Program-made: the position numbers and the translations under genes | Origin: Flexilinea flocculi | Lineage (GTDB): Bacteria > Chloroflexota > Anaerolineae > Anaerolineales > Anaerolineaceae | Assembly: GCF_001192795.1 (NCBI RefSeq) | Contig: NZ_DF968181.1 | Location: forward strand, 1,788,974-1,852,973 | DNA length: 64,000 nt | Reading direction: 5' to 3' | Notes under the pieces: generated by a model | What the model was told of the DNA's origin: nothing | Database searches by the model: none | The model's input: the letters and a program-made list of their open reading frames with translations, nothing else | Part shown: positions 40,275-58,157 of the stretch, piece by piece | Layout of the letters: the number at the start of each line of letters is the position of its first letter | Numbering within the stretch: the stretch's first letter is position 1

Positions 40275-41300
40275 TTATTCGGTGATGATACCTTTTGAGA
40301 CAAGAAGATCTTCCCGTTCTTCATCGATAACGGCATAAAAACTGCACCATTCTCCTTCAATGACACTCGGACGATACCGCAGGCCAAAAATCTGTCCATC
40401 AGCAGGCGCTGTCAATGTCTCTAACACATCACCATACAAATTGTAAATATGTCCCAAAACAGTTCCTTTTTTCAAAGGAGTACGAAGCGGTACATCCGCC
40501 CCGACAAATAATCCGCTGGCGTTCGCGAGCAATGCGACCTGGTGTCCGCGACTCCATTGTTTTGCGTACACGGCTTGCCCTTCAATCATTCCATAATGCC
40601 GCATTACGTTCAGATACGCATCAAGATATACCTGTGCTACTTCATGAAAATCCGTAGTTAATGTACGGCAATATCCGCCATGTTCAACTGTCAAAGCGCC
40701 TTTTCCCATTCCACCGAACATCGCAGTCGGATTTCCGGTTCCGGCTTTACGACTATGTAATGCCAGGTTCCAATCCGGTCCCATTGCTTTACCCAATTCC
40801 AGACTTTCCGGATTTTCCGGTGCAAAAAATGCACGACATAACATTGAATGGTCACCACCAGAATGAATCGCCAAATGAAGATCAGCATGTTTCGATGCGA
40901 TTTCATGATAAGCCCAGGCAACGCGCTCTGACGGATATCCATCCGGTTTTCCTGGATAAAATCGGTTCATGTCGTAGGAAAAAGCATCGCGAGGGTCACC
41001 TCGTTGTCCGTCCATTAATGCTTCAACGTTAAGTGCAGGAACAAGAACCAATGTACCAGCCATCTTTTTAGGATCTAATTCAGGCTGTTTTGTTAATAGG
41101 GCGATTGAATAGGGTCCTTCGGGTTCATCACCGTGGGTTGAACCCATGATCCAAAGGTTTTTGCCTTCTTTGATACCGTGATATACAACGATCGGAATCT
41201 CACGTTCAATTCCATACATATTTTTTCCAATTGAGATCGTTCCTCGTTTCATCTCACCTGGATTTGTTACTACATTTCCGATTTTTAATTCTGTTGACAC
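40275..41300 (-). CDS. M14-like deacylase, succinylglutamate desuccinylase/aspartoacylase family
   Basis: This 341-residue zinc hydrolase has ligands H56 and E59 (GSTHGDEPEG) and H142 (ADLHLAIHSGG), with catalytic Glu E206 (LTVEHGG). The C-terminal roughly 90 residues form the beta-barrel cap (VPLRTPLKKGTVLGHIYNLYG). Family members remove an acyl group from an N-acyl amino acid, as in aspartoacylase, AstE and the ectoine-pathway deacetylase DoeB/EutE, whose length is similar. It lies downstream of the peptide-type binding protein in the same operon, so an N-acylated amino compound may be one of the imported or intermediate substrates. Confidence 0.87.
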   Translation of the reverse strand: MSTELKIGNVVTNPGEMKRGTISIGKNMYGIEREIPIVVYHGIKEGKNLWIMGSTHGDEPEGPYSIALLTKQPELDPKKMAGTLVLVPALNVEALMDGQRGDPRDAFSYDMNRFYPGKPDGYPSERVAWAYHEIASKHADLHLAIHSGGDHSMLCRAFFAPENPESLELGKAMGPDWNLALHSRKAGTGNPTAMFGGMGKGALTVEHGGYCRTLTTDFHEVAQVYLDAYLNVMRHYGMIEGQAVYAKQWSRGHQVALLANASGLFVGADVPLRTPLKKGTVLGHIYNLYGDVLETLTAPADGQIFGLRYRPSVIEGEWCSFYAVIDEEREDLLVSKGIITE

Positions 41301-41528: not shown

Positions 41529-43139
41529 TTAGTCAACAATATAAGCCCATTTGATCGGGAAAATTGTTTGAGCTGCATCCAGATACAAGCCGTAGACATT
41601 GCTTGTAGTAACCACAACTGATTGTTTCTCGAACAGATACAAATCTGATGCTTCATCCCACATTGTTTTTTGGATTGCTTTATATGCCTCATCACGCTCT
41701 TCAACGGTCGGGAGTAAATTCGCCGCATCGATCATCTTATCGACTTCTTCATTACAATAATAAGAATAGTTCCAATAAGTGGTCGGCCAGGCTGAACACG
41801 GCCAGGCGTATTTTGATAAATAGTTCACATCTCCATTGAAAGTACCCCAGGACAAGTTGGCCATATCATAATAAGGTTGGACTCCCTTCTCGGTGGATAC
41901 AGGAGCATTATTTAATGACGCGAGGTAAGAAGCATTATCTTGTACTTCGATTCGGACATTGATCCCAACATTTGCGAGGTAACCCTGGACAAGCTCAGCA
42001 AGCTCATAATCGCCTGCTTCCAATCCTTTGCGAGTCCACATGATTAGTTCGAGCTCTTCACCATTAAATTCACGGAAACCATCATTATTGGTATCAACTA
42101 ATCCTTCAGCTTCAAGCATTTGTTTCGCCAGTTCAGGATCATATGCATATACTTCCTGAGCAGCAAAACCATCAAGTGCAGAAGTTGCCAGACGTGAGCG
42201 AAGCGGCGATGCATATCCCATGAAAATCACATTAGCAATACTGTCTTTATCAATTGCATGATTGAAAGCTTTGCGGACATTGATATTATCAAGTGGAGGA
42301 TGAATGTTGACCAGCGAGAAATAGTATGCACGAGAACCTGCACCTGACCAAATTTTCAGATTTGGATCACTTTCAAAACGAGAAATATCTTGAAATGACA
42401 AATCGGTTGTCATTTGGGTTTCGCCAGTTTCCAGCATCATAGCTCGCGTATTATTATCCGGAATGATTTTTATTTCGACAGCATCAAGGTACGGTAAACC
42501 ATCCTGCCAATAATTTTCATTCTTTTTCAGTTTCAGAATTTCGCCCGGAATATATTCATCCACAACGAATGGTCCTGTTCCGCATGCTTCGTTCTTCAAA
42601 CCTTCATCACCAACTTTTTCAACAAAAGCAGGGCTATACATGCCGAATGTCTTGATCGCCAGTGTTTTGAAAATTGGCGCATAAGGCTGAGTCAGAGTAA
42701 ATCGAAGGGTATACGCATCAACAACTTCAATCTTATCGATCGGAATATCATTCCACATCGGAAGTTGTTTTTCGATTTTACGGTCAAAATTCCATTTTGC
42801 TACCTCAGCATTGAAATCCGTTCCATCATGGAATTTGATTCCTTCATGAAGTTTAAAGTTATAAACAAGACCATCATCAGATACATCAAAGGATTCTACC
42901 AAAAGCGGCACAACCTCACCCTGATCGTTGACATCGAATAAAGTCTCATAATACATTTGTGACCAGAGGTTGCTCGATATCTGATTGATCGCCTGAACAT
43001 CCAAATGCACAATACTTGGGACAGTCATCACAAATGTACCGCCATATTGAGGTTCAGGGTCAGCTGCGGATACTGCGGACACCATCAAAACAAAAACTGC
43101 AAGTATTACCATTACACTGATACGAAAACTTTTTTTCAC
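41529..43139 (-). CDS. peptide/nickel-type ABC transporter substrate-binding protein (family 5)
   Basis: This 536-residue binding protein has a signal peptide at residues 1-25 (ILAVFVLMVSAVSAADPEP) and no lipobox. The mature start QYGGTFVMTVPS and later blocks NFKLHEGIKFHDGTDFNAE, EACGTGPFVVDEY, VRKAFNHAIDK and DPELAKQMLEAEG are typical of OppA/DppA proteins. It delivers a peptide or peptide-like ligand to the DppB/DppC-type permeases encoded upstream in the same operon, with ATPases from the divergent arm. The ligand is unknown and is the key question for this locus. Confidence 0.93.
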   Translation of the reverse strand: MKKSFRISVMVILAVFVLMVSAVSAADPEPQYGGTFVMTVPSIVHLDVQAINQISSNLWSQMYYETLFDVNDQGEVVPLLVESFDVSDDGLVYNFKLHEGIKFHDGTDFNAEVAKWNFDRKIEKQLPMWNDIPIDKIEVVDAYTLRFTLTQPYAPIFKTLAIKTFGMYSPAFVEKVGDEGLKNEACGTGPFVVDEYIPGEILKLKKNENYWQDGLPYLDAVEIKIIPDNNTRAMMLETGETQMTTDLSFQDISRFESDPNLKIWSGAGSRAYYFSLVNIHPPLDNINVRKAFNHAIDKDSIANVIFMGYASPLRSRLATSALDGFAAQEVYAYDPELAKQMLEAEGLVDTNNDGFREFNGEELELIMWTRKGLEAGDYELAELVQGYLANVGINVRIEVQDNASYLASLNNAPVSTEKGVQPYYDMANLSWGTFNGDVNYLSKYAWPCSAWPTTYWNYSYYCNEEVDKMIDAANLLPTVEERDEAYKAIQKTMWDEASDLYLFEKQSVVVTTSNVYGLYLDAAQTIFPIKWAYIVD

Positions 43140-45695: not shown

Positions 45696-46547
45696 TTATC
45701 GATTTTTCATTCTGGGGTCAAGGGCTACACGCAATCCATCACCCAGTGTATTGAATCCGAAGACAACCAGCATTAAAGCTAAACCTGGGAAAATCATCAT
45801 ATGTGGAGCCATCCGGAACCATTTAACACTATCCTGGAGCATACTTCCCCATTCCGCTGTGGGCGGACGAACGCCGAGTCCAAGAAAACTGAGACTGGCC
45901 GCCATCATAATTGCCGACGGGATTAAAATACTCATTTGTACAATAATCGAAGACAGAATATTCGGAAGAATACACTTTTGCATAATCCAAAGGTCATCAG
46001 CTCCAACAGTAACGGATGAAGTCACAAATTCACGTTCTTTGACGGATAAGACCTGTCCATGGGTTAATCGCGCAAATTGAGGAATTTGGCTGAAAGTCAC
46101 AGCGATAATCATGTTTTTGACATCAGTTCCGAGAATTGAAATAATCGTCAACGCTACAATAATTCCGGGAAATGACAGCAATACATCCACCAGTCTCATA
46201 ATGATCATTTCACTTCTCTTAAACCAACCAGCCAGGAGGCCGAGAGTAACACCGATAATAGCTCCAAGAGTGACCGAAATAAATGCGATAGATAATGAAA
46301 TCCTTGATCCAAATACAACCCGCGTATAAATATCGCGTCCGTTATTGTCAGTTCCAAAAATATGTCCTTTACTTGGGGATTTCAGTGCACTAGTCAAATC
46401 AATTTGGTTCGGAGAATAAGTGACAAGATAAGGAGCAAAAACTGCTATCAGGATGAAGAGAATAACAATGATTCCCCCGATCGTTCCAAGCTTATTATTC
46501 TTGAAAAAAAAGTGAAAATTGTTTTTTATATGATTCAATGTGTCCAT
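45696..46547 (-). CDS. peptide-type ABC transporter permease (DppC/OppC)
   Basis: This 283-residue permease has an N-terminal OppC leader (NKLGTIGGIIVILFILIAVF) and five to six membrane helices, with HIFGTDNNGRDIYTRVVFGSR and the EAA-like loop VKEREFVTSSVTVGADDLWI. The C-terminal GEWGSMLQD-type block reads ECGSM-like as AEWGSMLQDS. It follows DppB by 9 bp and forms the channel with it. Confidence 0.94.
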   Translation of the reverse strand: MDTLNHIKNNFHFFFKNNKLGTIGGIIVILFILIAVFAPYLVTYSPNQIDLTSALKSPSKGHIFGTDNNGRDIYTRVVFGSRISLSIAFISVTLGAIIGVTLGLLAGWFKRSEMIIMRLVDVLLSFPGIIVALTIISILGTDVKNMIIAVTFSQIPQFARLTHGQVLSVKEREFVTSSVTVGADDLWIMQKCILPNILSSIIVQMSILIPSAIMMAASLSFLGLGVRPPTAEWGSMLQDSVKWFRMAPHMMIFPGLALMLVVFGFNTLGDGLRVALDPRMKNR

Positions 46548-46556
46548 CTGTCATCC

Positions 46557-47477
46557 TTAGTTAAAACGAATTCTTGGATCAACCAATCCATAAAGTAAAT
46601 CTATTAACAGATTGACTAAAACAAAACTTGTAGCAAAAACAAGTAGAACACCTTGTACCACCATTAGGTCTCGCTGTTCGACTGATGTAACTAATAACCT
46701 GCCCAAGCCTGGCCATGCAAATACAGTCTCAGTAACAACAGCCCCACCAAGTAAATATCCAAATTGCAGACCAACGACTGTGATTACCGGGATTAATGCA
46801 TTCCGTAAAACATGTTTTGCAATTACAATCCGCTCCTTCATCCCTTTTTCTCTTGCTGTGCGGACATAATCTTCTCCGAGAATCTCGAATAGTGATGAAC
46901 GTGTCATTCGTGCAATGAAAGCAATTGAATAAACTGACAATACAATCGTCGGCATAATGTAATGTTTTAGTGAAGCATTGCCCGTAGTCGGTAATAACTT
47001 TAATTTAACGCTGAAAAAATACATCAACAACAATGCCAACCAAAAAGACGGTATCGAAATTCCAAATATTGAAAGAACACTGATTACATAATCGGCAGGT
47101 TTTTCGCGTTTTAATGCGGAAATGGTCCCGAAAACAATACCAAATATCGATGAAACGACAGTTGCAACTACAGCAAGTCTTACTGTATTAAAGAAGCGAG
47201 ACTTTATTTCTAAAAATACAGGGCGGCCGGTTATAGCCGATTTCCCCATGTCACCTTTTAAAAGTCGTTGCAAATAGATTGAATACTGTTCAAAAACCGG
47301 TTTGTCTAGCCCCAAATCAGATCGAATCTGAGCTATTTGTTCCTGTGATGCTTGTTCTCCTGCAAAAATTAAAGCTGCATCACCAGGAATTAACTGAAAT
47401 GCAAAAAAAACAAGTGTTATTACTAAAAAAACTGTGGGTATGCAAACCAAAAGTCTGCGTATGATATATGAAAGCAA
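46557..47477 (-). CDS. peptide-type ABC transporter permease (DppB/OppB)
   Basis: This 306-residue permease starts MLSYIIRRLLVCIPTVFLVI, the OppB signature, with IPGDAALIFAGEQAS and LGLDKPVFEQYSIYLQRLLKGD in the first loop. The EAA region is DYVRTAREKGMKERIVIAKH. Six membrane segments. GGAGGAAAAT precedes the ATG. It is separated from the upstream aminotransferase gene by 181 bp containing a hairpin (47614-47650), perhaps a segmental-expression point. Confidence 0.94.
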   Translation of the reverse strand: MLSYIIRRLLVCIPTVFLVITLVFFAFQLIPGDAALIFAGEQASQEQIAQIRSDLGLDKPVFEQYSIYLQRLLKGDMGKSAITGRPVFLEIKSRFFNTVRLAVVATVVSSIFGIVFGTISALKREKPADYVISVLSIFGISIPSFWLALLLMYFFSVKLKLLPTTGNASLKHYIMPTIVLSVYSIAFIARMTRSSLFEILGEDYVRTAREKGMKERIVIAKHVLRNALIPVITVVGLQFGYLLGGAVVTETVFAWPGLGRLLVTSVEQRDLMVVQGVLLVFATSFVLVNLLIDLLYGLVDPRIRFN

Positions 47478-47658: not shown

Positions 47659-48810
47659 TTATTTTTTTAGATATGACTCCATCCGTTTTAAGGCTTCTGT
47701 GAGCTTTTCTTCCGGTTGCAAAAAAGTAATTCGAATAAAATCATCAAATTGAGCTCCATATGCACCGCCAGGATAGACAAGCACATGGCAGTTTTCCAAC
47801 ACTTTTTGTGCAAATTCATAGGATGTCATCTTGAATTTCTTTATTGAGACAAATACAAACTGCCCGCCTTCAGGGACGCCATATTCCATACCAATCCTGT
47901 CAAGCCCGTCCATAACAGCTCTTCGTCGTAAAACGAAGGTGTTATACATCTTCTCAATGGATTGTGTTTTACCGGTTAATGCCGCCAGCGCCCCAACCTG
48001 CCCGATTATGGTTGTCGGTCCAGTCATTATTGCTTTGTAATTTTTAACCGCCGCAATCAGGTCTTTGGGCCCCACGATCCATCCCAACCTCCAACCGCAC
48101 ATTGCGAATTGTTTTGACGCAGCATTTAATGTAAGTGTTCTGTCAAATGCTTCTTTTAATGATGCCGGACTGAGATGTTGAATCCCATCATAGACAAAGC
48201 GATCATAAATATCGTCTGAAATGATGATTAAGTCGTGATCCACAGCGATTTTTACCAGTTTCTTTACAACTTCAGGATCAATCACTGCACCTGCCGGATT
48301 ATTGGGGGAAACAAGTAAAATCGCTCTGGTTTTATCCGTAATCAGATTTTCTACTACTTCAGGATCTATTCGGAAATTTTCTTCTACTTTTGTCGGTACC
48401 GATACGCGAACCGCACCGGAAAACTTAATGGAATCTCGATAAGAGTTGTAATTCGGATCAGGAACTAAGATTTCATCATCTTTAGTCAATACAGTGTTAA
48501 TCATCAAAAAAACTGCTTCTTGTCCGCCATTTGTCACAACAATATCTGTTTCAGGATTCACATCAATATGATTTATCTCCCTGACTCGTTTGGCAATTGC
48601 CTCCCGCAATGGCAGAATTCCCTCGACAGGTGAATCCCAAATAACATGATTGGACGCAAAATCTTTAACACTGTCAATAATATATTCAGGGGTATCAAAA
48701 TCGGGGTCCCCTCTTCCCAATTCAATCCGATCCGGATATTTTTTTGCTTTTGCATTCAGTGCATAAAGCTGGGAAGTAGTAATTTTTGGAAGATTATTCT
48801 GGTTCGTCAT
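47659..48810 (-). CDS. class I/II PLP-dependent aminotransferase
   Basis: This 383-residue enzyme of the aspartate-aminotransferase superfamily has the full active-site set: LGRGDPDFDTP (N-terminal substrate loop), Asn in VSPNNPAGA, Asp in IIISDDIYDRF (D199/D200 region), Schiff-base Lys K233 in LNAASKQFAMCGWRLGW with the phosphate-binding Arg eight residues on, and substrate Arg near FDDFIRITFLQP. It would interconvert an amino acid and its 2-oxo acid in the cytoplasm. The partner 2-hydroxyacid dehydrogenase in the same operon could reduce the keto acid. Confidence 0.92.
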   Translation of the reverse strand: MTNQNNLPKITTSQLYALNAKAKKYPDRIELGRGDPDFDTPEYIIDSVKDFASNHVIWDSPVEGILPLREAIAKRVREINHIDVNPETDIVVTNGGQEAVFLMINTVLTKDDEILVPDPNYNSYRDSIKFSGAVRVSVPTKVEENFRIDPEVVENLITDKTRAILLVSPNNPAGAVIDPEVVKKLVKIAVDHDLIIISDDIYDRFVYDGIQHLSPASLKEAFDRTLTLNAASKQFAMCGWRLGWIVGPKDLIAAVKNYKAIMTGPTTIIGQVGALAALTGKTQSIEKMYNTFVLRRRAVMDGLDRIGMEYGVPEGGQFVFVSIKKFKMTSYEFAQKVLENCHVLVYPGGAYGAQFDDFIRITFLQPEEKLTEALKRMESYLKK

Positions 48811-48873: not shown

Positions 48874-50061
48874 TTAGTCCAAAAGTCGATAGGACCAGTC
48901 TTTCGGTGATAACCGAATGGAACCATCCGGAGTAACTAAATAATTGTCGGAAATTAAGAAAGCCTTATGGCCTTCAAGCATTGTTGAGGGATGGAAAGAA
49001 AGAACCATATTCGATTCTAGAATTTCAGCAGGTGTAAACCATGCAGATGGTCCATCACTTTCATCCAAACCAATTGAGTGCGCATCCGGTGTATGTTTTC
49101 CGTTGGGAATTAATTGTTTTACATTTGGAGAGTAATTTGCATCACCGATAATTTTGAATCCATTTTCGCGCCAGACACGATTGGAGGTCTCCGCAATAAT
49201 TCCGATATGGTTGCCTGTTTTTGCAACTGCTGCACATTCCTGAATGACAACTTCATGGACTGCAAGTTGATGAGCAATCGGTTCCGGCAATGGTTTGAAG
49301 GAATAAAGCGCAGTCATTTCTGACCAATAGCCAAGAGGGCCGGTGTAAACCAGTTCGAAAACGAAAATATCATCCTCAGTGAAAACTTTGTCCAAAGGAG
49401 TAGGAATCGTCTCCGGCCGAAGATCAAATGAATACTTTGAGCGTCCCCAGAAACAACCTTGTTCTTTTAATACTTCTTCAGCAACTGCTGCAGCTTCCCA
49501 AACACGTACACCCGGTTTTGCAACCATATTGAACGTGTCAAATGCTTCTGACATAATTCTGCCCGTGTTGTAATTTTCTTCGATTTCGAAAAATGTTTTT
49601 ACAGCACGAATCTTGTCAAGTTCTTTTGTCAAGTCGATAAACTCACAATCTGGCATTTCTTTGTGGATTCTATCCCAGTCACCTACAGACCAATTACCAG
49701 CAACATGGTCAACACCGACTTTTTTATCTTTTACACAGAATTCCTTTGCAATTTCTATTACGCGTCCGTAAGCATCAGGATCTGGGTTTTCAACCCATTT
49801 TGTCGTGGCATCCTGCCGATTCCAGTCTGCTCCGTACGGAGACCACTGCAGGATTGCCGGTTCTTCTGCATCCGCTCCCAAGACGACCCAAGCAGCTCCA
49901 GCCCAAAGGTTAAGATTCGTAATGTACTTTGCCATGCCCATCATTCCGGGTGCACCATGTGCCGGAATTACTAAAGCTCCAATGCCTTTTTCCTTCATAA
50001 GACTCTGGATTTTCTTAACTCTTCTTGCTACATCTTGTTCGAGCGCAAATCTTCTGATCAT
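48874..50061 (-). CDS. second M24-fold protein with an altered metal site
   Basis: This 395-residue creatinase/aminopeptidase P-fold protein is only distantly similar to the other M24 protein of the operon. By motif alignment the metal-ligand positions are E236 (FVFELVYTGP), E248 (YWSEMTAL), H328 (DAHSIGLDES), H357 (LSFHPSTM) and S371 (LISDNYLVT). The canonical set is Asp, Asp, His, Glu, Glu, so only the His is kept in identity. It should be metal-independent or use a different site, like creatinase or DoeA/EutD. AAGGAGTCTCTAA precedes the ATG. Confidence 0.83.
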   Translation of the reverse strand: MIRRFALEQDVARRVKKIQSLMKEKGIGALVIPAHGAPGMMGMAKYITNLNLWAGAAWVVLGADAEEPAILQWSPYGADWNRQDATTKWVENPDPDAYGRVIEIAKEFCVKDKKVGVDHVAGNWSVGDWDRIHKEMPDCEFIDLTKELDKIRAVKTFFEIEENYNTGRIMSEAFDTFNMVAKPGVRVWEAAAVAEEVLKEQGCFWGRSKYSFDLRPETIPTPLDKVFTEDDIFVFELVYTGPLGYWSEMTALYSFKPLPEPIAHQLAVHEVVIQECAAVAKTGNHIGIIAETSNRVWRENGFKIIGDANYSPNVKQLIPNGKHTPDAHSIGLDESDGPSAWFTPAEILESNMVLSFHPSTMLEGHKAFLISDNYLVTPDGSIRLSPKDWSYRLLD

Positions 50062-50091: not shown

Positions 50092-51279
50092 TTATTTTGA
50101 ATTCATTTGGAGGAATTCATTGACTGCTTTTTCTAATGTTTTAACTGTATGCGGTTTGGTAAATACCATTTCAGCATATTGATGTGCGAATCCATGCTGT
50201 TTCATCTTGCGGTAAATATCGCGAATAAATTTCCGTCCATGATAATAATGGGGGAAACAAGTTGACCACAGTGGATTCGTGAAAAATCCATAGCGGACTT
50301 TTGCTAATTTCGGATCCATACAAGTTTCTTCGATTAACACTTTTGCTACATCCTCAGAAGAAAGCCTGCCTTCGTTGCATGCAATCGCCAGATTTGTTTC
50401 AATTCCGTTGGTGTAATCCGTTGCAAGAGCCTGAATGACATCGTTGATTCCTTCTTCCATGCCAATCATTTCCATGCTAAGTTCACATTGTCCTTCATGA
50501 ATTGGACTAATTCCCGTGTTGTAGAAACAAAGTGTAGCTTCAACATCGATGTTTTCCTCATTAAACAATTTCTCTCTGATGGCTGAAAACGTCTGATGCC
50601 CTGGATAAGCTTCATGCAAAATCGTGTGCTTCAAACTTGGCCGTTCCCAATTAACTTCACCATTCAGCCAAATTTGTCCCTGGTATTTTCCATCATAGGA
50701 GCTATAGCCTCTGTATGGATAATTCATTGGAAAATTCAATTTCGTATGTTGCTCAGAAGGCAGACCAATTTCTAAATCCACGACATGTTGTCGTCCTTTC
50801 GAAAGGATTTCCTGCCCATATTTTTCCATCTCAGCGCCAGAAATCGCCTGGTCTGATTTCCACTGCTGCAGACCGATGTTGACATTATCCGGATATCCAG
50901 CTTCAGCCAGCGCCCTGCAAAGCTTCTCTTTCGTAGTTTCGATTTCACTTTGATTAATCAAAATCGAGTCAAGCTGTAAAAATGTCTTAACACGTTCCTG
51001 ATATGGAATTTTTTCGCCCAATCCAAATCGTGCCATAACTCTATAGGCATCTACAACTGAAAATAAATAATCCTGGCGTTCTGCCGGCAAAGTCCCTACT
51101 TCATTTTCCAGAAGATCAACTTGTTTGCTGATCTCTTTCCAATCCCAGCCGGGGTCTTTTATTCCATAATCAAAAACATTGCGAGATAAAAACGGATGAA
51201 TCCCAGTTCGTTCTGCTTCCTGCGTGTCGATAGCAAGGGATACTTCAATTAGTTTCAGAATCTGTTTTTCCAGTTTCAT
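50092..51279 (-). CDS. short DUF885 family zinc peptidase
   Basis: This protein has about 395 residues. The zinc motif HEAYPGH (H222, E223, H228) and the third ligand E262 in IHEGQCELSMEM are those of DUF885 proteins, M3/M32-like gluzincin peptidases. Typical DUF885 proteins are 550-600 residues; this one lacks most of the N-terminal helical region yet keeps the active-site block, so it may be a compact subfamily. A longer frame reaches 51333 and overlaps the next gene; the ATG at 51279 is preceded by TTGGGAG at proper distance. It probably hydrolyses a peptide or amide bond in the imported compound. Confidence 0.78.
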   Translation of the reverse strand: MKLEKQILKLIEVSLAIDTQEAERTGIHPFLSRNVFDYGIKDPGWDWKEISKQVDLLENEVGTLPAERQDYLFSVVDAYRVMARFGLGEKIPYQERVKTFLQLDSILINQSEIETTKEKLCRALAEAGYPDNVNIGLQQWKSDQAISGAEMEKYGQEILSKGRQHVVDLEIGLPSEQHTKLNFPMNYPYRGYSSYDGKYQGQIWLNGEVNWERPSLKHTILHEAYPGHQTFSAIREKLFNEENIDVEATLCFYNTGISPIHEGQCELSMEMIGMEEGINDVIQALATDYTNGIETNLAIACNEGRLSSEDVAKVLIEETCMDPKLAKVRYGFFTNPLWSTCFPHYYHGRKFIRDIYRKMKQHGFAHQYAEMVFTKPHTVKTLEKAVNEFLQMNSK

Positions 51280-51301
51280 TGCATCTCCCAATTTTTTTAT
51301 A

Positions 51302-52303
51302 TCAGCTAAAATCGATTTGTGGTTTTTCACCATTAAAGATGCGATTCACTTCTATCATCGTTTCGGACAATTCAAGCCCGCGATTTGTTCCAGACCCTCC
51401 ACCAATATGCGGTGTTAATATCACATTGTCCAATTCTAAAATCGGACTAGTTTCAGGCAGCGGTTCATATATAAATACATCCAGCCCAGCTCCCGCAATT
51501 TTCTTGTCCTGAAGTACTTTTATTAATGCCTCTTCATCTACGTTGCCTCCGCGGCACACATTCACAAAGTAAGCAGTGGATTTCATCATCTCCAGAAGCT
51601 TTTGGTTGATCATTCCTTCTGTTTCGGGTGTTTGCGGTACTGCCAGACAGACATAATCAGAGGTTTTCATCAAATCTTCCAAAGGCAGATATGTTGCGTC
51701 AAACCTCTCTTCCAATTCTTTAGATAAGGGAGATCGTTTATAGTAATTAACTTTCATTCCCATAACATTTGCTCTTCGTGACAGCTCACAACCGATCTCG
51801 CCCATCCCGATTATGCCTAAGGTTTTCCCTCTAACTTCATGCACCGCCGTATTTGCCATCCAATGAAACGCCATTTTCATTTGATCGGTCAGTATTGGTC
51901 GCAGACCGCGATACCGGAATGCACAATCCATGACGCTTGCATGAGAAGTAACCAGGTCTTTGCTCAAAGCAAGGATCAGGGTCATGGCCAATTCAGCGAC
52001 ACAGTTTGGTCCTTTCCGAGGAGTGCAATAAAGACTGATCTTTTTCGAGCGGGCGTAAGCTGTATCAATATTATGGTAGCTTCTGCCCATTTTCATGATC
52101 ATCTGCAATCCAGTAACTTGATCAATCATTTGACTGGTTACTTTTTCGGTCTTACTGATTATGACCTCATAATTCTTTGAAAGTAATGAACTAAGGTTTT
52201 CTGCCGTCTTTGGACAGATAAGTTCATAATCCGGAAATTTTGATTTAACTTCTGGAAGGAAGTCAAAGAATTCCGGATCGATGACCAAAACGCGTTTCGC
52301 CAT
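51302..52303 (-). CDS. D-isomer-specific 2-hydroxyacid dehydrogenase
   Basis: This 333-residue enzyme has the NAD-binding block GKTLGIIGMGEIGCELSRRA, the catalytic Arg in VNVCRGGNVDEEAL, Glu in DVFIYEPLPETSP and His in LTPHIGGGSG. The acidic residue that normally ends beta-2 and selects NAD is replaced by YYKRSP, suggesting NADP use (inference). A longer open frame upstream overlaps the previous gene; CAGGAGAAATAAC precedes the ATG at 52303, one base after the previous stop, so I take that start. It may reduce the keto acid formed by the aminotransferase. Confidence 0.92.
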   Translation of the reverse strand: MAKRVLVIDPEFFDFLPEVKSKFPDYELICPKTAENLSSLLSKNYEVIISKTEKVTSQMIDQVTGLQMIMKMGRSYHNIDTAYARSKKISLYCTPRKGPNCVAELAMTLILALSKDLVTSHASVMDCAFRYRGLRPILTDQMKMAFHWMANTAVHEVRGKTLGIIGMGEIGCELSRRANVMGMKVNYYKRSPLSKELEERFDATYLPLEDLMKTSDYVCLAVPQTPETEGMINQKLLEMMKSTAYFVNVCRGGNVDEEALIKVLQDKKIAGAGLDVFIYEPLPETSPILELDNVILTPHIGGGSGTNRGLELSETMIEVNRIFNGEKPQIDFS

Positions 52304-52304
52304 G

Positions 52305-53420
52305 TTATTTCTCCTGTTTCTCAAATTTTGATAGAAAACTAATGATTTTCTTATTCTTTTGGTCATCCAGAGAGATACTAATTCTTGTAACGCCCTTGGC
52401 ATTGAATATATTTCCTGGTAACAAATCAATACCAGATTCAACAAATGCCCGATAGATCTTTTCCTCAGGGTCAAAAAATGCTGCGACATTTGCTGCCTCA
52501 CCCGGAATCGCTGCAATGCGTGCATCTGCTAAAGCAGATAAAAGAGCATTTTTCTGGGACTTAAGAGTTTCAAATAAGTCAGAATACTTTTCTGCATAAA
52601 GTTTACCCGCCATAATCGACGCATACTGTGTGGGAGCACTGGTACATATAGAAAGCACTTGTTTTTGAACTTGAAGAAGCGTCACCCAATCCTCTTTTGC
52701 AGTAATGAACGCTGTATTCAGACCCTTCATTCCGATGCCGGGGAAAGTCTCGCCGATCAGAACAAATCGTTGAATTCGATTCGTCAATGCTGAATAAAAG
52801 TGATCTGGTATTTCAGCCCATGGGAGGAATCCGATATCTATGATTGCGTAAGCATCATAGCGTTCAAGAATTGAACAAATTTCCTCAAATTGCCCATTTT
52901 CTAATAATTTACCGGATAGTCTGACAGGATTTTCAAAATAAACGAGCTTATATCCATTTTGTACTGCTCGCAATACTTCATCCGGTAAAGTTTGAAAATT
53001 CTTACGATTGGTTGCAGTTTTTAAGGATCTTGTTTCCCGAACCTTAAGGATTTGATGAACATTGGGATCACAAGAAGAAGGGACAGCAATTCCTCCGAGT
53101 AAAGCGGAGAAAACCTGAATTGCTAAGAAACGTGATTCATGGATTCCAGTGGTTACCAGCACATTTGCCGCCGAGATCGATGTTAATCCAGTCGTCTGCA
53201 ATGTATCTGCAATGATTTTTCGCAAAGCCATAACGCCAGGAACATCCACATAATGCGTTTCGCCCTTTTTTAATGCTTCAACTGCTTGTTCGACAAGTTC
53301 CCGTTTTATTTGTAATGATGGATGATCAAATGTAAAATCATATTCTGAACTTGTGCTTGAACGTTTCACAATATTCGCTTTTTGACGTTCAATAATCATT
53401 TCTTTTGTTGAAATACTCAT
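52305..53420 (-). CDS. aminotransferase-like fold-type I protein lacking the PLP lysine
   Basis: This 371-residue protein has class I aminotransferase architecture: THYVDVPGVMALRKIIAD at the N-terminus, Asn N164 in YFENPVRLSG, pyridine-Asp D195 in AYAIIDIGFLPW and Arg in VTRISISLDD near the end. The segment that should contain the Schiff-base Lys (S-K-x-F) reads IGETFPGIGMKG, giving Glu E224 at the Lys position, with K232 where the phosphate-binding Arg normally sits. The rest of the protein is intact, so this looks selected, not decayed. It may be a binding protein, a regulator or an enzyme with altered chemistry. Lies 1 bp before the dehydrogenase gene. Confidence 0.75.
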   Translation of the reverse strand: MSISTKEMIIERQKANIVKRSSTSSEYDFTFDHPSLQIKRELVEQAVEALKKGETHYVDVPGVMALRKIIADTLQTTGLTSISAANVLVTTGIHESRFLAIQVFSALLGGIAVPSSCDPNVHQILKVRETRSLKTATNRKNFQTLPDEVLRAVQNGYKLVYFENPVRLSGKLLENGQFEEICSILERYDAYAIIDIGFLPWAEIPDHFYSALTNRIQRFVLIGETFPGIGMKGLNTAFITAKEDWVTLLQVQKQVLSICTSAPTQYASIMAGKLYAEKYSDLFETLKSQKNALLSALADARIAAIPGEAANVAAFFDPEEKIYRAFVESGIDLLPGNIFNAKGVTRISISLDDQKNKKIISFLSKFEKQEK

Positions 53421-53545: not shown

Positions 53546-54439
53546 CTAAAAATCTTCCACTTTATAACGATATCCCCGGCTTGTGATGTAAGGTTCAATT
53601 AATTCGATCGTTACACCATGGTTGTCCTCAGGATAAACAAATGCTTCGAATCCATCTTCTCTATCCAAAAAGATTTTATTTTGATAAAGAGATACTCCTG
53701 CAGCTTGAATTCGTTTTACGGCACGGCGAATATCGCCTACTTCAATGGACAAATGCTCTAAACCTTCACCGTGTCTCTCCATAAATTGCGTTACTCGATT
53801 CTCCGGATCCACACTTTCCACCAGATGCAGCCACATCCGATCATTGCCAAATTCAATCATCATGTCTTTTTGTGTTCCATAATGCTGATCTGTTCTTAAG
53901 GCTGCCGGTTTGACACGGAATAATTTTTCAAATTTTTCGCATGAAGCTTTTACATCCTTAACTGCTACACCGATATGCTGTAATCCCAATAGATTAGGAT
54001 TGGAGACTTTCCATGGTTCCCAGGTATAACTTGTAACATGAGGTTGAATAAGCTCCACTGTAAAGCCAATACCATCTTCCGGATAAACAAATGCTTCGTA
54101 TCCGTCTGCTGCTTTAAAGATCTTGTCTTGATAAATGGGAACCCCGATTGATTTCAAATGGGCTACTTCCTCTTCAATATCAGTAGTCTCTAATGCGATA
54201 TGTTCAATACTTTCCCCATGTTTCTTAAGAAACTGATTTACACGAGACTCAGGATTCCAGTTTTCAACCAGATGAATCCAGGTTTGATTGGGCATCATGA
54301 TACGTGCGTCTAGCTGAAAGCCCTTACCCTGATCATTGCGAAAATCAGTTGCTTTAAATCCGAACAATTTTTCATAGGTATTTACTGCTTTGTCAAGTTT
54401 GTCAACAACAAGACCAACATGATGGATTCGTAAAATCAT
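53546..54439 (-). CDS. two-domain VOC (glyoxalase-fold) protein
   Basis: This 297-residue protein consists of two similar VOC domains, residues 1-130 and 150-290. Each has an ILRIHHVGLVVDKLDKA/LQHIGVAVKDVKASCEK start, a WIHLVEN/WLHLVES strand and FVYPEDG/FVYPEDN ends. The repeated H, H and E positions could form a metal site as in methylmalonyl-CoA epimerase or extradiol dioxygenases. Internal similarity is high, pointing to a rather recent tandem duplication. It is the first gene of the long minus-strand operon, so the enzyme probably acts early, for example as an epimerase/isomerase or dioxygenase on the imported compound; the reaction is unknown. Confidence 0.85.
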   Translation of the reverse strand: MILRIHHVGLVVDKLDKAVNTYEKLFGFKATDFRNDQGKGFQLDARIMMPNQTWIHLVENWNPESRVNQFLKKHGESIEHIALETTDIEEEVAHLKSIGVPIYQDKIFKAADGYEAFVYPEDGIGFTVELIQPHVTSYTWEPWKVSNPNLLGLQHIGVAVKDVKASCEKFEKLFRVKPAALRTDQHYGTQKDMMIEFGNDRMWLHLVESVDPENRVTQFMERHGEGLEHLSIEVGDIRRAVKRIQAAGVSLYQNKIFLDREDGFEAFVYPEDNHGVTIELIEPYITSRGYRYKVEDF

Positions 54440-56187: not shown

Positions 56188-57180
56188 ATGGCGGATATAT
56201 TACAAGTAACTGATCTCGAGACACAATTTAAAACAAGAGAAGGTGTTATACATGCAGTTAATGGAGTTAATTTTTCTCTAAAGGAAGGAGAAACTCTCGG
56301 AATTGTAGGTGAGAGCGGATGCGGTAAAAGCGTTTCAATGATGTCACTATTGCGACTTATTCCCAATCCTCCAGGAAAAGTCTTAGCAGGGAAAGCTCTT
56401 TTTGAGAATCAAGATCTTTTATCGATTAGTGACAATGAAGTCAGAAAAGTACGCGGGTCAAAAATTAGTGTTGTTTTTCAGGATCCGATGACTTCTTTCA
56501 ATCCAGTTTTGACTATAGGCGATCAGGTTTCAGAACCATTTCGCGTCCATTCCGATGCGTCGAAAACGGATGCACTGGACAGGGCAGTAAAATACATTGA
56601 TCTGGTAGGTATTCCAAATCCACGTGAACGTCTGAATGATTATCCGCATCAATTTTCAGGTGGAATGCGGCAGCGTGCAATGATTGCGATGGGGTTGATT
56701 TGTGAACCCAAAATATTAATTGCAGATGAACCGACCACTGCGTTGGATGTCACAATTCAGGCACAAATTGTTGAACTGGTAAAACGGCTGCAGAACGAAC
56801 TTGGAATGTCGATTATTTGGATCACACATGACCTTGGAATTATTGCCGGTCTTGCTGACCGTGTCAATGTTATGTATGGCGGTTACATTGTTGAAACTGC
56901 ACCGGTAAAAGATCTTTATAAGAATCCGCAACATCCATATACAATTGGGCTTTTAGGCAGTCTTCCTCGTATGGATTCATCAGAATATCGCCGTCTTACA
57001 TCCATCGATGGTTTACCGCCAATTTTATTGGAAAAACCCAATTATTGCTGTTTTGAACCACGCTGCAGATTCGCAGTGGATAAATGCCGAAACATGAATC
57101 CAGGATTATTACAAGTTGAGGGAGAAGGCCATTTCGCCGCATGCTGGGTTAATCCCAAAACCGGAAAGGAATATGCATGA
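56188..57180 (+). CDS. peptide-type ABC transporter ATPase (OppD/DppD)
   Basis: This 330-residue ATPase has Walker [10 protein letters not shown] (about residues 40-48), Q-loop [16 protein letters not shown], signature [15 protein letters not shown], Walker [12 protein letters not shown] and switch His ITHDLG. The C-terminal oligopeptide extension has three or four Cys ([15 protein letters not shown]), the usual Fe-S/zinc-like site of the family. It overlaps OppF by 4 bp (ATGA). Its permeases and binding protein are on the opposing operon. Confidence 0.95.
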
Positions 57181-58157
57181 TGTCAGAAAATAATATCTTA
57201 TTAAAAGTTGACAATCTTGTAAAACTCTTTCCTATAAAAAAGGGAAGTTTGTTTTCGAGAAACGCCGGTTATGTTCATGCGGTCGATGGTGTTTCATTTA
57301 ATATTTATCAAGGAGAGACTCTCGGTCTGGTTGGAGAATCCGGCTGCGGAAAATCCACAACCGGAAGAACCATCCTGCAGCTTTATCCCCCGACATCAGG
57401 AAGTGTCTGGTTTAATGGAGAAGATTTAGCAGTATTGCAAGGGAAAAAACTGCGCCAGAAACGTCGGCAATTGCAAATGATTTTTCAAGATCCCTATGCA
57501 AGTCTGAATCCCCGCATGACAGTTGCACAAATCATCGGCGAACCAATGGAGATTCACAAAACTTTTCAAGGTGAAGCAAAATTAAAAAGGGTTAGAGAAT
57601 TGTTGGAATTAGTCGGATTAAATCCAACTTTTATCAACCGATATCCGCATGAATTTTCCGGAGGGCAGCGACAACGCATCGGAATCGCCAGGGCACTTGC
57701 TCTGGAACCAAAGCTGATCGTTTGTGATGAACCCATTTCCGCTTTAGACGTATCGATTCAAGCACAAGTTGTCAATCTGCTTGAAGACTTACAACAAAAA
57801 ATGGGCTTAACCTATTTATTTATCGCACATGACTTATCCATGGTTCGTCATATCAGTAATCGAATTGCCGTTATGTATCTTGGAAAAATCGTCGAACTGG
57901 CTGACAGAAATGAACTTTATGCCGATCCGCGACATCCATATGCACAAGCACTTTTATCCGCGATTCCTTTTCCAGATCCTTTTATTGAAGAAACAAGAAA
58001 ACGCATCATATTGGAAGGAGATGTCCCTTCACCGGTAAATCCGCCTAGTGGTTGTAGATTCCGTACACGATGCCGATATGCAAAGGAAATCTGTTCTGTT
58101 GAAGATCCCGAATTAAAAGAAATTAAACCTGGACATTCCGTCGCATGCCATTTTTAG
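57177..58157 (+). CDS. peptide-type ABC transporter ATPase (OppF/DppF)
   Basis: This 326-residue ATPase has Walker [11 protein letters not shown]-loop [16 protein letters not shown], signature [15 protein letters not shown], Walker [13 protein letters not shown] and switch His IAHDLS. The oligopeptide C-terminal extension has [14 protein letters not shown]. With OppD it energises the importer whose other parts are encoded divergently. A terminator follows. Confidence 0.95.

Follow-up and report, generated by a model that had tools for sequence, protein, structure and literature searches.

The usual view of aminotransferases is that of homodimers or homotetramers in which each chain has one active site. 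Those of the class I aspartate/aromatic group are homodimers with two lysine-based sites, and in aspartate aminotransferase (AspAT) Tyr70* (the asterisk marks a residue contributed by the other chain) reaches into the active site of the other subunit. In bacteria, the glycine decarboxylase P-protein GcvPA/GcvPB pairs two homologous subunits of fold type I, one of them without the pyridoxal phosphate (PLP) lysine, and serine palmitoyltransferase is an alpha-oxoamine synthase. Of the LCB1/LCB2 pair that makes up the latter, only LCB2 carries the PLP lysine; LCB1 lacks the key residues, although other residues of this chain are predicted to participate, and the working hypothesis is a heterodimer with a single site (PMC3794620). 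The characterised family that NCBIfam ranks first for both proteins described below is GntC, an enduracididine cyclase (PDB 8FFT/8FFU). GntC is a homodimer with the lysine at position 219, and N52* and H250* of each site come from the other chain (PMC10367076). A one-site pair is known for sphingolipid synthesis; in the open-licence literature we found no description of a heterodimeric aminotransferase or of an aminotransferase pseudo-subunit, which is not proof of absence in print.

We analysed a stretch of 64,000 nucleotides from Flexilinea flocculi (hereafter, the window), in which a lysine-less aminotransferase-like gene shares a gene run with a lysine-containing homologue. The two genes and their relevant codons are:

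52305..53420, minus strand: lysine-less aminotransferase-like protein, the 'THY subunit', type 1 (371 aa open reading frame, PF00155)
52740..52742, minus strand: codon of Pro227, in the Schiff-base lysine slot (four alignment routes)
52749..52751, minus strand: codon of Glu224, at the Lys-3 position (alignment; Glu in 33 of 36 type 1 sequences)
52920..52922, minus strand: codon of Arg167, in the slot of the asparagine that contacts PLP O3' (Arg in all 36 type 1 sequences)
53250..53252, minus strand: codon of Tyr57, equivalent of Tyr70* (Tyr in 67 of 67 THY sequences: 36 type 1, 30 type 2, 1 type 3)
52641..52649, minus strand: codons of Ile258-Cys259-Thr260, Lys+31 to Lys+33, the slot of GntC H250* (alignment)
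47659..48810, minus strand: lysine-containing aminotransferase, the proposed 'CAT subunit' (Lys233, GRGDPD motif; PF00155 at 207 bits; NCBIfam GntC at 326.5 bits, below the cut-off of 415)
48634..48636, minus strand: codon of CAT Asp59, in the Tyr70 slot, here without Tyr (alignment)

Like serine palmitoyltransferase, this is a set of two homologous PLP-enzyme subunits of which one is without the lysine. Unlike that enzyme, which is membrane-bound and has extra small subunits, THY and CAT are bacterial aminotransferase-type subunits encoded in catabolic-looking gene runs, and THY also comes in a truncated type. GcvPA/GcvPB differs from THY/CAT in its branch of fold type I and in its chemistry. 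The trans residues N52* and H250* of GntC fall at or near slots that the THY subunits keep; unlike the THY/CAT pair, GntC is homodimeric, and each of its chains has Lys219. The two window proteins fall below the GntC equivalog cut-off of 415 (NF041364), THY with 96 bits and CAT with 326.5.

The THY gene, read on the minus strand from 53420 to 52305, is a single intact open reading frame of 371 aa with an ATG start. The first-pass annotation, made from the sequence alone, had likewise described the frame as intact and the catalytic lysine as missing, and both points hold. The protein matches the class I/II aminotransferase family at 70 bits (PF00155, cut-off 19.7) and has its fold and sequence family in common with the class I aspartate/aromatic aminotransferases (1bjw, 1dju, 1o4s), although solved aminotransferases are only distantly similar to it (best 1o4s, E 4e-14, phmmer). 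Pro227 falls in the Schiff-base lysine slot and Glu224 at Lys-3 by four alignment routes, all ungapped over this stretch: phmmer against 1o4s, MAFFT together with 23 Lys-containing aminotransferases, the family profile against 1bjw (the AspAT of T. thermophilus), and an hhalign profile-profile alignment (probability 99.9). The THY stretch R-F-V-L-I-G-E-T-F-P-G pairs ungapped with, for example, R-T-I-L-L-G-G-F-S-K-A. Glu224 had been taken as the replacement of the Schiff-base lysine, a reading whose register was off by three residues. In the MAFFT alignment with Lys-containing aminotransferases, the slot of the PLP asparagine holds Arg167 and that of the phosphate-binding arginine Asn235, so the earlier assignments of these roles to N164 and to a lysine at position 232 fall away, whereas those of the pyridine aspartate (Asp195) and of the C-terminal arginine (Arg346) stand. 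Structure models were weak for THY (monomer, pLDDT 61, pTM 0.58) and poor for CAT (pLDDT 57), and residue geometry was drawn from neither; the Foldseek matches shown for the THY model were mostly class I aminotransferases (TM about 0.5, rmsd 7-13).

As a single query at E<=1e-20, the window THY protein retrieved only itself from 61 genomes, which comprised its own, 13 others from the genus, 23 from the family and 24 from the order, and again only itself in 400 genomes across the phylum at E<=1e-25, for which this query is insensitive. A wider draw from the order gave matches in 4 of 400 genomes, the window's own and three of one genus at about 29% identity; these three relatives all lack the lysine and all lie beside a Lys-containing aminotransferase. 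The family profile reached 14 of 396 genomes of the class, the window's included. A scan of genome contigs returned 4 distinct loci, all in Anaerolineales, and since it rested on two short peptide patterns, members elsewhere are possible. With the window CAT protein as the query, 219 genomes of the window's class yielded 9 matches at E<=1e-80, in 6 genomes, every one of which adjoins a THY gene or, in the window, shares its gene run. Three of the nine form a sister clade with aminotransferase-like genes immediately upstream, two of these Lys-less and short. This clade had been considered as an unpaired control and was dropped as such, since its fetched surroundings showed pairing there too.

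The THY subunits show a graded loss, from type 3, which has the lysine (1 locus), to type 1 without it (36 loci) and type 2 without the lysine and the C-terminal domain (30 loci). These 67 distinct loci outside the window are what remains of 78 rows after removal of 11 repeat fetches of the same gene. Types 2 and 3 accompany the sister clade of CAT partners. Profile A6 at 1e-25 matches most aminotransferases (213 of 249 genomes), so only far stronger matches were counted as type 2/3; such matches, scoring 374-415 bits, came from 3 genomes, and the match ranked after them had 143 bits. In one family, type 2 is found in 42 of 98 genomes and type 1 in 43 of the same 98, and from each of these two sets 30 loci were read.

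The THY-CAT pair is the constant element of these loci, and the other neighbours vary. The gene that follows THY on the same strand is a CAT gene in 66 of the 67 loci, and the 67th stops at a contig end; for type 1, a CAT relative adjoins in 35 of 36 loci besides the window, the 36th stopping at a contig end. The distance from the THY stop to the nearest possible CAT start codon is -8 to +31 nt in 69 of 77 paired rows (a 4-nt overlap in 19); for the remaining 8 it ranges from 91 to 269 nt. In the window the CAT gene (47659-48810) belongs to the same run as THY, with three genes between them. Across the 17 neighbourhoods compared with the window, the partner is 47-57% identical to the window CAT. 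The lysine is present in the CAT chains of 35 of 36 type 1, 29 of 30 type 2 and the single type 3 pair, the two exceptions being an open reading frame broken by N (L067) and a cut one (L141); among THY chains it is present in 1 of 67.

Residues were counted in 67 THY sequences, with the window included and one locus (L010, with an N run and no N-terminus) excluded. THY and CAT sequences were drawn from their loci by motif patterns including THY, IC[TS] and GRGDPD. These patterns matched all THY loci to which they were applied (46 of 46 type 1 rows, copies still included, and 30 of 30 for type 2) and lost none; 17 sequences chosen by similarity instead of motif gave the same residue result. In the 36 distinct type 1 sequences, the lysine slot holds Pro (27), Ser (5) or His (4), and never Lys. 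Homologues that mostly carry the lysine, which would have spoken against the first-pass reading, were looked for; beyond these 36 sequences, one more distant full-length relative (L052:6614-7900) has it. Other residues of the site have been replaced as well: the slot of the PLP asparagine is Arg throughout (36 of 36), that of Tyr225 is Leu in 34 sequences, Phe in 1 and Met in 1, that of the phosphate arginine is Phe (20), His (5), Leu (5), Gly (3), Asn (1), Tyr (1) or Gln (1), the Ser255 equivalent is lost, and the aromatic stacker is gone, with His at its position in 34 of 36. The pyridine aspartate (Asp222 equivalent) is kept in all 36, and the C-terminal arginine (Arg386 equivalent) in 33, with Gln in 2 and the stretch absent in 1 row. 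The Lys-3 position is Glu in 33, Asp in 2 and Ala in 1. The emptied pocket is thus itself conserved (Arg167 36/36, acidic Lys-3 35/36, stacking His 34/36, Asp222 36/36, Arg386 33/35), which counts against a mere scaffold, since a scaffold would not need such residues.

Type 2 chains are about 240 aa long, and because they end 14-23 residues past I-C-[TS] (30 of 30) the C-terminal domain is absent. Their lysine slot is Ala (8), Glu (6), Asp (6), Gln (3), Gly (3), His (2), Val (1) or Arg (1), followed by a two-residue deletion, and the asparagine slot, in a stretch with deletions, is Val (18), Asp (10), Thr (1) or Ile (1). The phosphate arginine equivalent is kept in 30 of 30 and the Ser255 equivalent in 29 of 30. 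Type 3 is a single gene (L052:6614-7900), full length, with lysine and asparagine kept. In one type 1 subunit (L009:7255-8082) the chain ends at 275 aa, soon after I-C-T and much like type 2, which may reflect an assembly frameshift or an independent truncation. A DUF4438 gene lies upstream of all three type 2/3 pairs for which wider surroundings were retrieved (L052:5580-6560, L053:3471-4409 and L054:9935-10864); in L053 some 2.5 kb separate it from the pair, which it adjoins in L052 and L054; the assignment is from Pfam for the first two and by reading for L054. This domain is not named in the open-licence literature searched.

The segments expected to reach into the partner are retained in all THY types. 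The Tyr70-equivalent loop, G-x-T-H-Y-x-x-[VR]-P-G, is found throughout the 67 sequences, with Tyr in its slot in 67 of 67, and the motif I-C-[TS], 31-33 residues past the lysine slot, has Ile and Cys in all 67, then Thr in 64 and Ser in 3. The Asp222 equivalent is also kept in 67 of 67. In CAT chains the Tyr70 slot holds Tyr in 21 of 36 (type 1), 0 of 30 (type 2) and 0 of 1 (type 3), and in ordinary aminotransferases of the same class in 24 of 25, with 1 gap. These 25 controls came from 29 loci through a pattern that contains the lysine motif, so that their lysine and phosphate arginine counts hold by construction, the Tyr count does not, and a Lys-less neighbour could not have been detected. 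With the residue numbering given in PMC10367076, GntC H250 falls at Lys+31, the slot of Ile258 in the window THY, and N52 would lie at or near the Tyr70 slot, judging from the numbering and the alignment range. The Lys-less chains lose most residues of their own site and keep those that would serve the site of the neighbour, type 2 being the clearest case; in the CAT partners it is the Tyr slot that varies, and the site of the chain itself is retained. We had considered the loss of Tyr70 in CAT as proof of pairing and toned this down, since GntC is a homodimer and has Asn in this slot or close to it, and since the Tyr is kept by 21 of 36 type 1 CAT chains.

Pairwise dN/dS was computed on sets that exclude the window genes. 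It has a median of 0.26 in type 1 THY (range 0.14-0.68, 399 pairs) and of 0.21 in type 2 THY (range 0.09-0.61), with medians of 0.12 for CAT in both types. The median of 0.26 indicates purifying selection on the relatives and a THY family that is not decaying, in agreement with the first-pass annotation, which had judged decay unlikely. Stop codons, which may be real or assembly errors, interrupt the stretch matched by the profile in two type 2 genes (G1038:C16, locus L118, and G1175:C25, locus L133) and in one type 1 fragment (G1164:C207). A quickly built maximum-likelihood tree with 73 rows (24 THY, 24 CAT and 25 controls) puts THY and CAT each on one side of a branch, with SH-aLRT of 100 and 96; the long branches, flagged by the tool's own warning, make its details unsafe. 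Such a split would be expected if one old duplication gave rise to both subunits.

Two homologous subunits, one of them Lys-less, are inherited together (adjacent in 66 of 67 loci, with 1 at a contig end), and this co-inheritance of THY relatives with a normal copy suggests that the two probably join into one enzyme. We consider it probable that the window THY is the subunit without catalytic function in a class I aminotransferase built as a heterodimer with one working site. Gene pairing, residue pattern and selection are the observations behind this proposal, and the complex, its trans contacts and its reaction would take the following form. The sites of class I aminotransferases are at the dimer interface. 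The CAT chain would bind PLP through its lysine and the substrate carboxylate through its C-terminal arginine, and THY would close the CAT site in trans with His56/Tyr57 and Ile258-Cys259-Thr260. At the second site, built on the THY chain, no Schiff base would be possible, and a site unable to form one would leave a dimer with one working site. Several points stand against the proposal. In the window the two genes are set apart by three others; Tyr70 can be missing from homodimers too, the homodimeric GntC having Asn52 at or near the slot; and the loss of the own site in THY is incomplete (Asp222 throughout, phosphate arginine and Ser255 in type 2). A more elaborate version is possible, if on the unlikely side: a bacterial one-site heterodimer whose non-catalytic chain has been pared in stages that coexist, and whose type 1 pocket has been rebuilt (Arg167, His, Glu224, Asp195) as a second, PLP-free ligand or catalytic site, which would give the dimer two sites of different kinds. 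The near-invariant residues of the emptied type 1 pocket make a ligand there possible.

An alternative that also suits the invariant trans residues is a homodimer of THY, where invariant cis and trans residues would meet in one site. THY would then be an independent homodimer in the same pathway as CAT, its old PLP pocket now a PLP-free catalytic or ligand site (Arg167, Glu163, Asp195, Glu224 and the stacking His), and the type 1 pocket residues are indeed about as conserved as the trans segments. We find this unlikely: type 2 has no C-terminal domain and a lysine slot free to vary (eight residues in 30 sequences), yet keeps the trans segments and the pairing; no CAT relative lies away from a THY gene (E<=1e-80, 219 genomes); and the loss of Tyr70 in type 2 and type 3 CAT chains is left unexplained. 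The conserved altered pocket of type 1 could instead sense an amino acid, with THY a regulator or stabiliser bound to a CAT subunit able to work alone, and in two of the 17 loci (L030, L032) the pair is directly preceded by a gene for a GntR-type regulator. However, this pocket is not kept in type 2, and what all three types do keep includes the segments expected to complete the site of the partner, so we hold such a role to be decidedly unlikely.

Of a THY subunit that works as a PLP or PMP enzyme without a Schiff base, with Glu (or Pro, His or Ser) for the lysine, the first-pass annotation had drawn the outline, and the retained Asp222 (36/36) and Arg386 (33/35) equivalents would suit it. 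We nevertheless think it very improbable. Glu224 is outside the lysine slot, the equivalents of the asparagine, Tyr225, the aromatic stacker, Ser255 and the phosphate arginine are gone in type 1, and a complete homologue with the lysine accompanies the gene. A non-catalytic partner subunit explains more. A decaying duplicate is hardly credible: THY subunits do evolve faster than their partners, and in some copies stop codons interrupt the stretch that was matched (G1164, L118, L133), but the median dN/dS values of 0.26 and 0.21, the mostly open frames and the motifs strictly kept in five families of a single class (f1, f15, f21, f24, f125) argue against it.

If the heterodimer proposal is true, aminotransferases also occur as heterodimers with a pseudo-subunit, with stages of the change preserved side by side. 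The route from a homomeric enzyme to an enzyme plus helper would then become testable, including why the second site was given up, and so would the minimal helper chain, here of about 240 residues with its end just past the trans segment. It would also call for caution with genes annotated simply as aminotransferases in such operons, which may be inactive without their neighbour or may be the inactive neighbour.

In the window, the pair belongs to a one-strand run of genes for a VOC protein, THY, a dehydrogenase, an uncharacterised protein, an M24-like protein, CAT and permeases. The genes of interest around it are:

51302..52303, minus strand: D-2-hydroxyacid dehydrogenase (PF02826; likely start ATG 52303, 1 nt past the THY stop)
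50092..51333, minus strand: uncharacterised protein with a HEAYPGH stretch, possible metallopeptidase (no NCBIfam match, Pfam sub-threshold)
48874..50061, minus strand: M24/creatinase-like protein (PF00557; 62% identical neighbour in L042)
53546..54439, minus strand: double VOC (glyoxalase-fold) protein (PF13669; orthologues in L009 and L042)
40275..41300, minus strand: AstE/aspartoacylase-like deacylase (relatives near the pair; PF24827 on the L030 relative)
41529..43139, minus strand: peptide-type ABC substrate-binding protein (open reading frame; 43% homologue in L042; family by reading)
45696..47477, minus strand: DppB/DppC-like permeases, two genes (open reading frames; relatives in L042; family by reading)
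56188..58157, plus strand: DppD/DppF-like ATPases, two genes (open reading frames; relatives in L008 and L009; family by reading)

Locus L042 and the window have in common the genes for the permeases, the binding protein, a DUF362-like protein, the M24-like protein, the unknown protein, a DegT protein, the VOC protein, the AstE-like protein and a racemase; the D-2-hydroxyacid dehydrogenase of the window is not among them. An orthologue of this dehydrogenase lies beside the pair in 5 of 17 loci (L007-L010 and L030), some loci being incomplete, and a malate/L-lactate-type dehydrogenase is present in L030 and several other loci, instead or additionally (from Pfam for the L030 copy, by reading for the rest). 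AstE-like relatives with 50-57% identity lie near the pair in 7 of 17 loci (L030, L032, L036-L038, L040 and L042), and a GntR-type regulator gene directly precedes it in 2 of 17 (L030, L032). In the pathway that this gene content suggests, a Dpp-type transporter would take up a peptide-like or N-acylated amino acid, the peptidases and the deacylase would hydrolyse the imported compound, the THY/CAT pair would transaminate, and the neighbouring dehydrogenase would reduce the 2-oxo acid to a 2-hydroxy acid. The pair probably helps to utilise a peptide-like or N-acylated amino acid taken up from outside; this is the least certain part of our proposal and is loosely supported. The 413 aa HEAYPGH protein (50092-51333) has a 37.5% identical homologue in the syntenic L042 (6355-7515), again without a Pfam match, and possibly represents an unrecognised metallopeptidase family.

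A single protein query found no relative in viral contigs. In plasmids, tblastn with three THY queries gave distant matches in 25, 4 and 401 records, and three matches that we inspected are Lys-containing aminotransferases with no second aminotransferase among their annotated neighbours. The Agrobacterium rubi plasmid NZ_CP049208.1 encodes a 667 aa fusion of a class I aminotransferase with an ABC transporter ATPase domain (L145:3854-5857), and ABC transporter genes follow the fusion gene.
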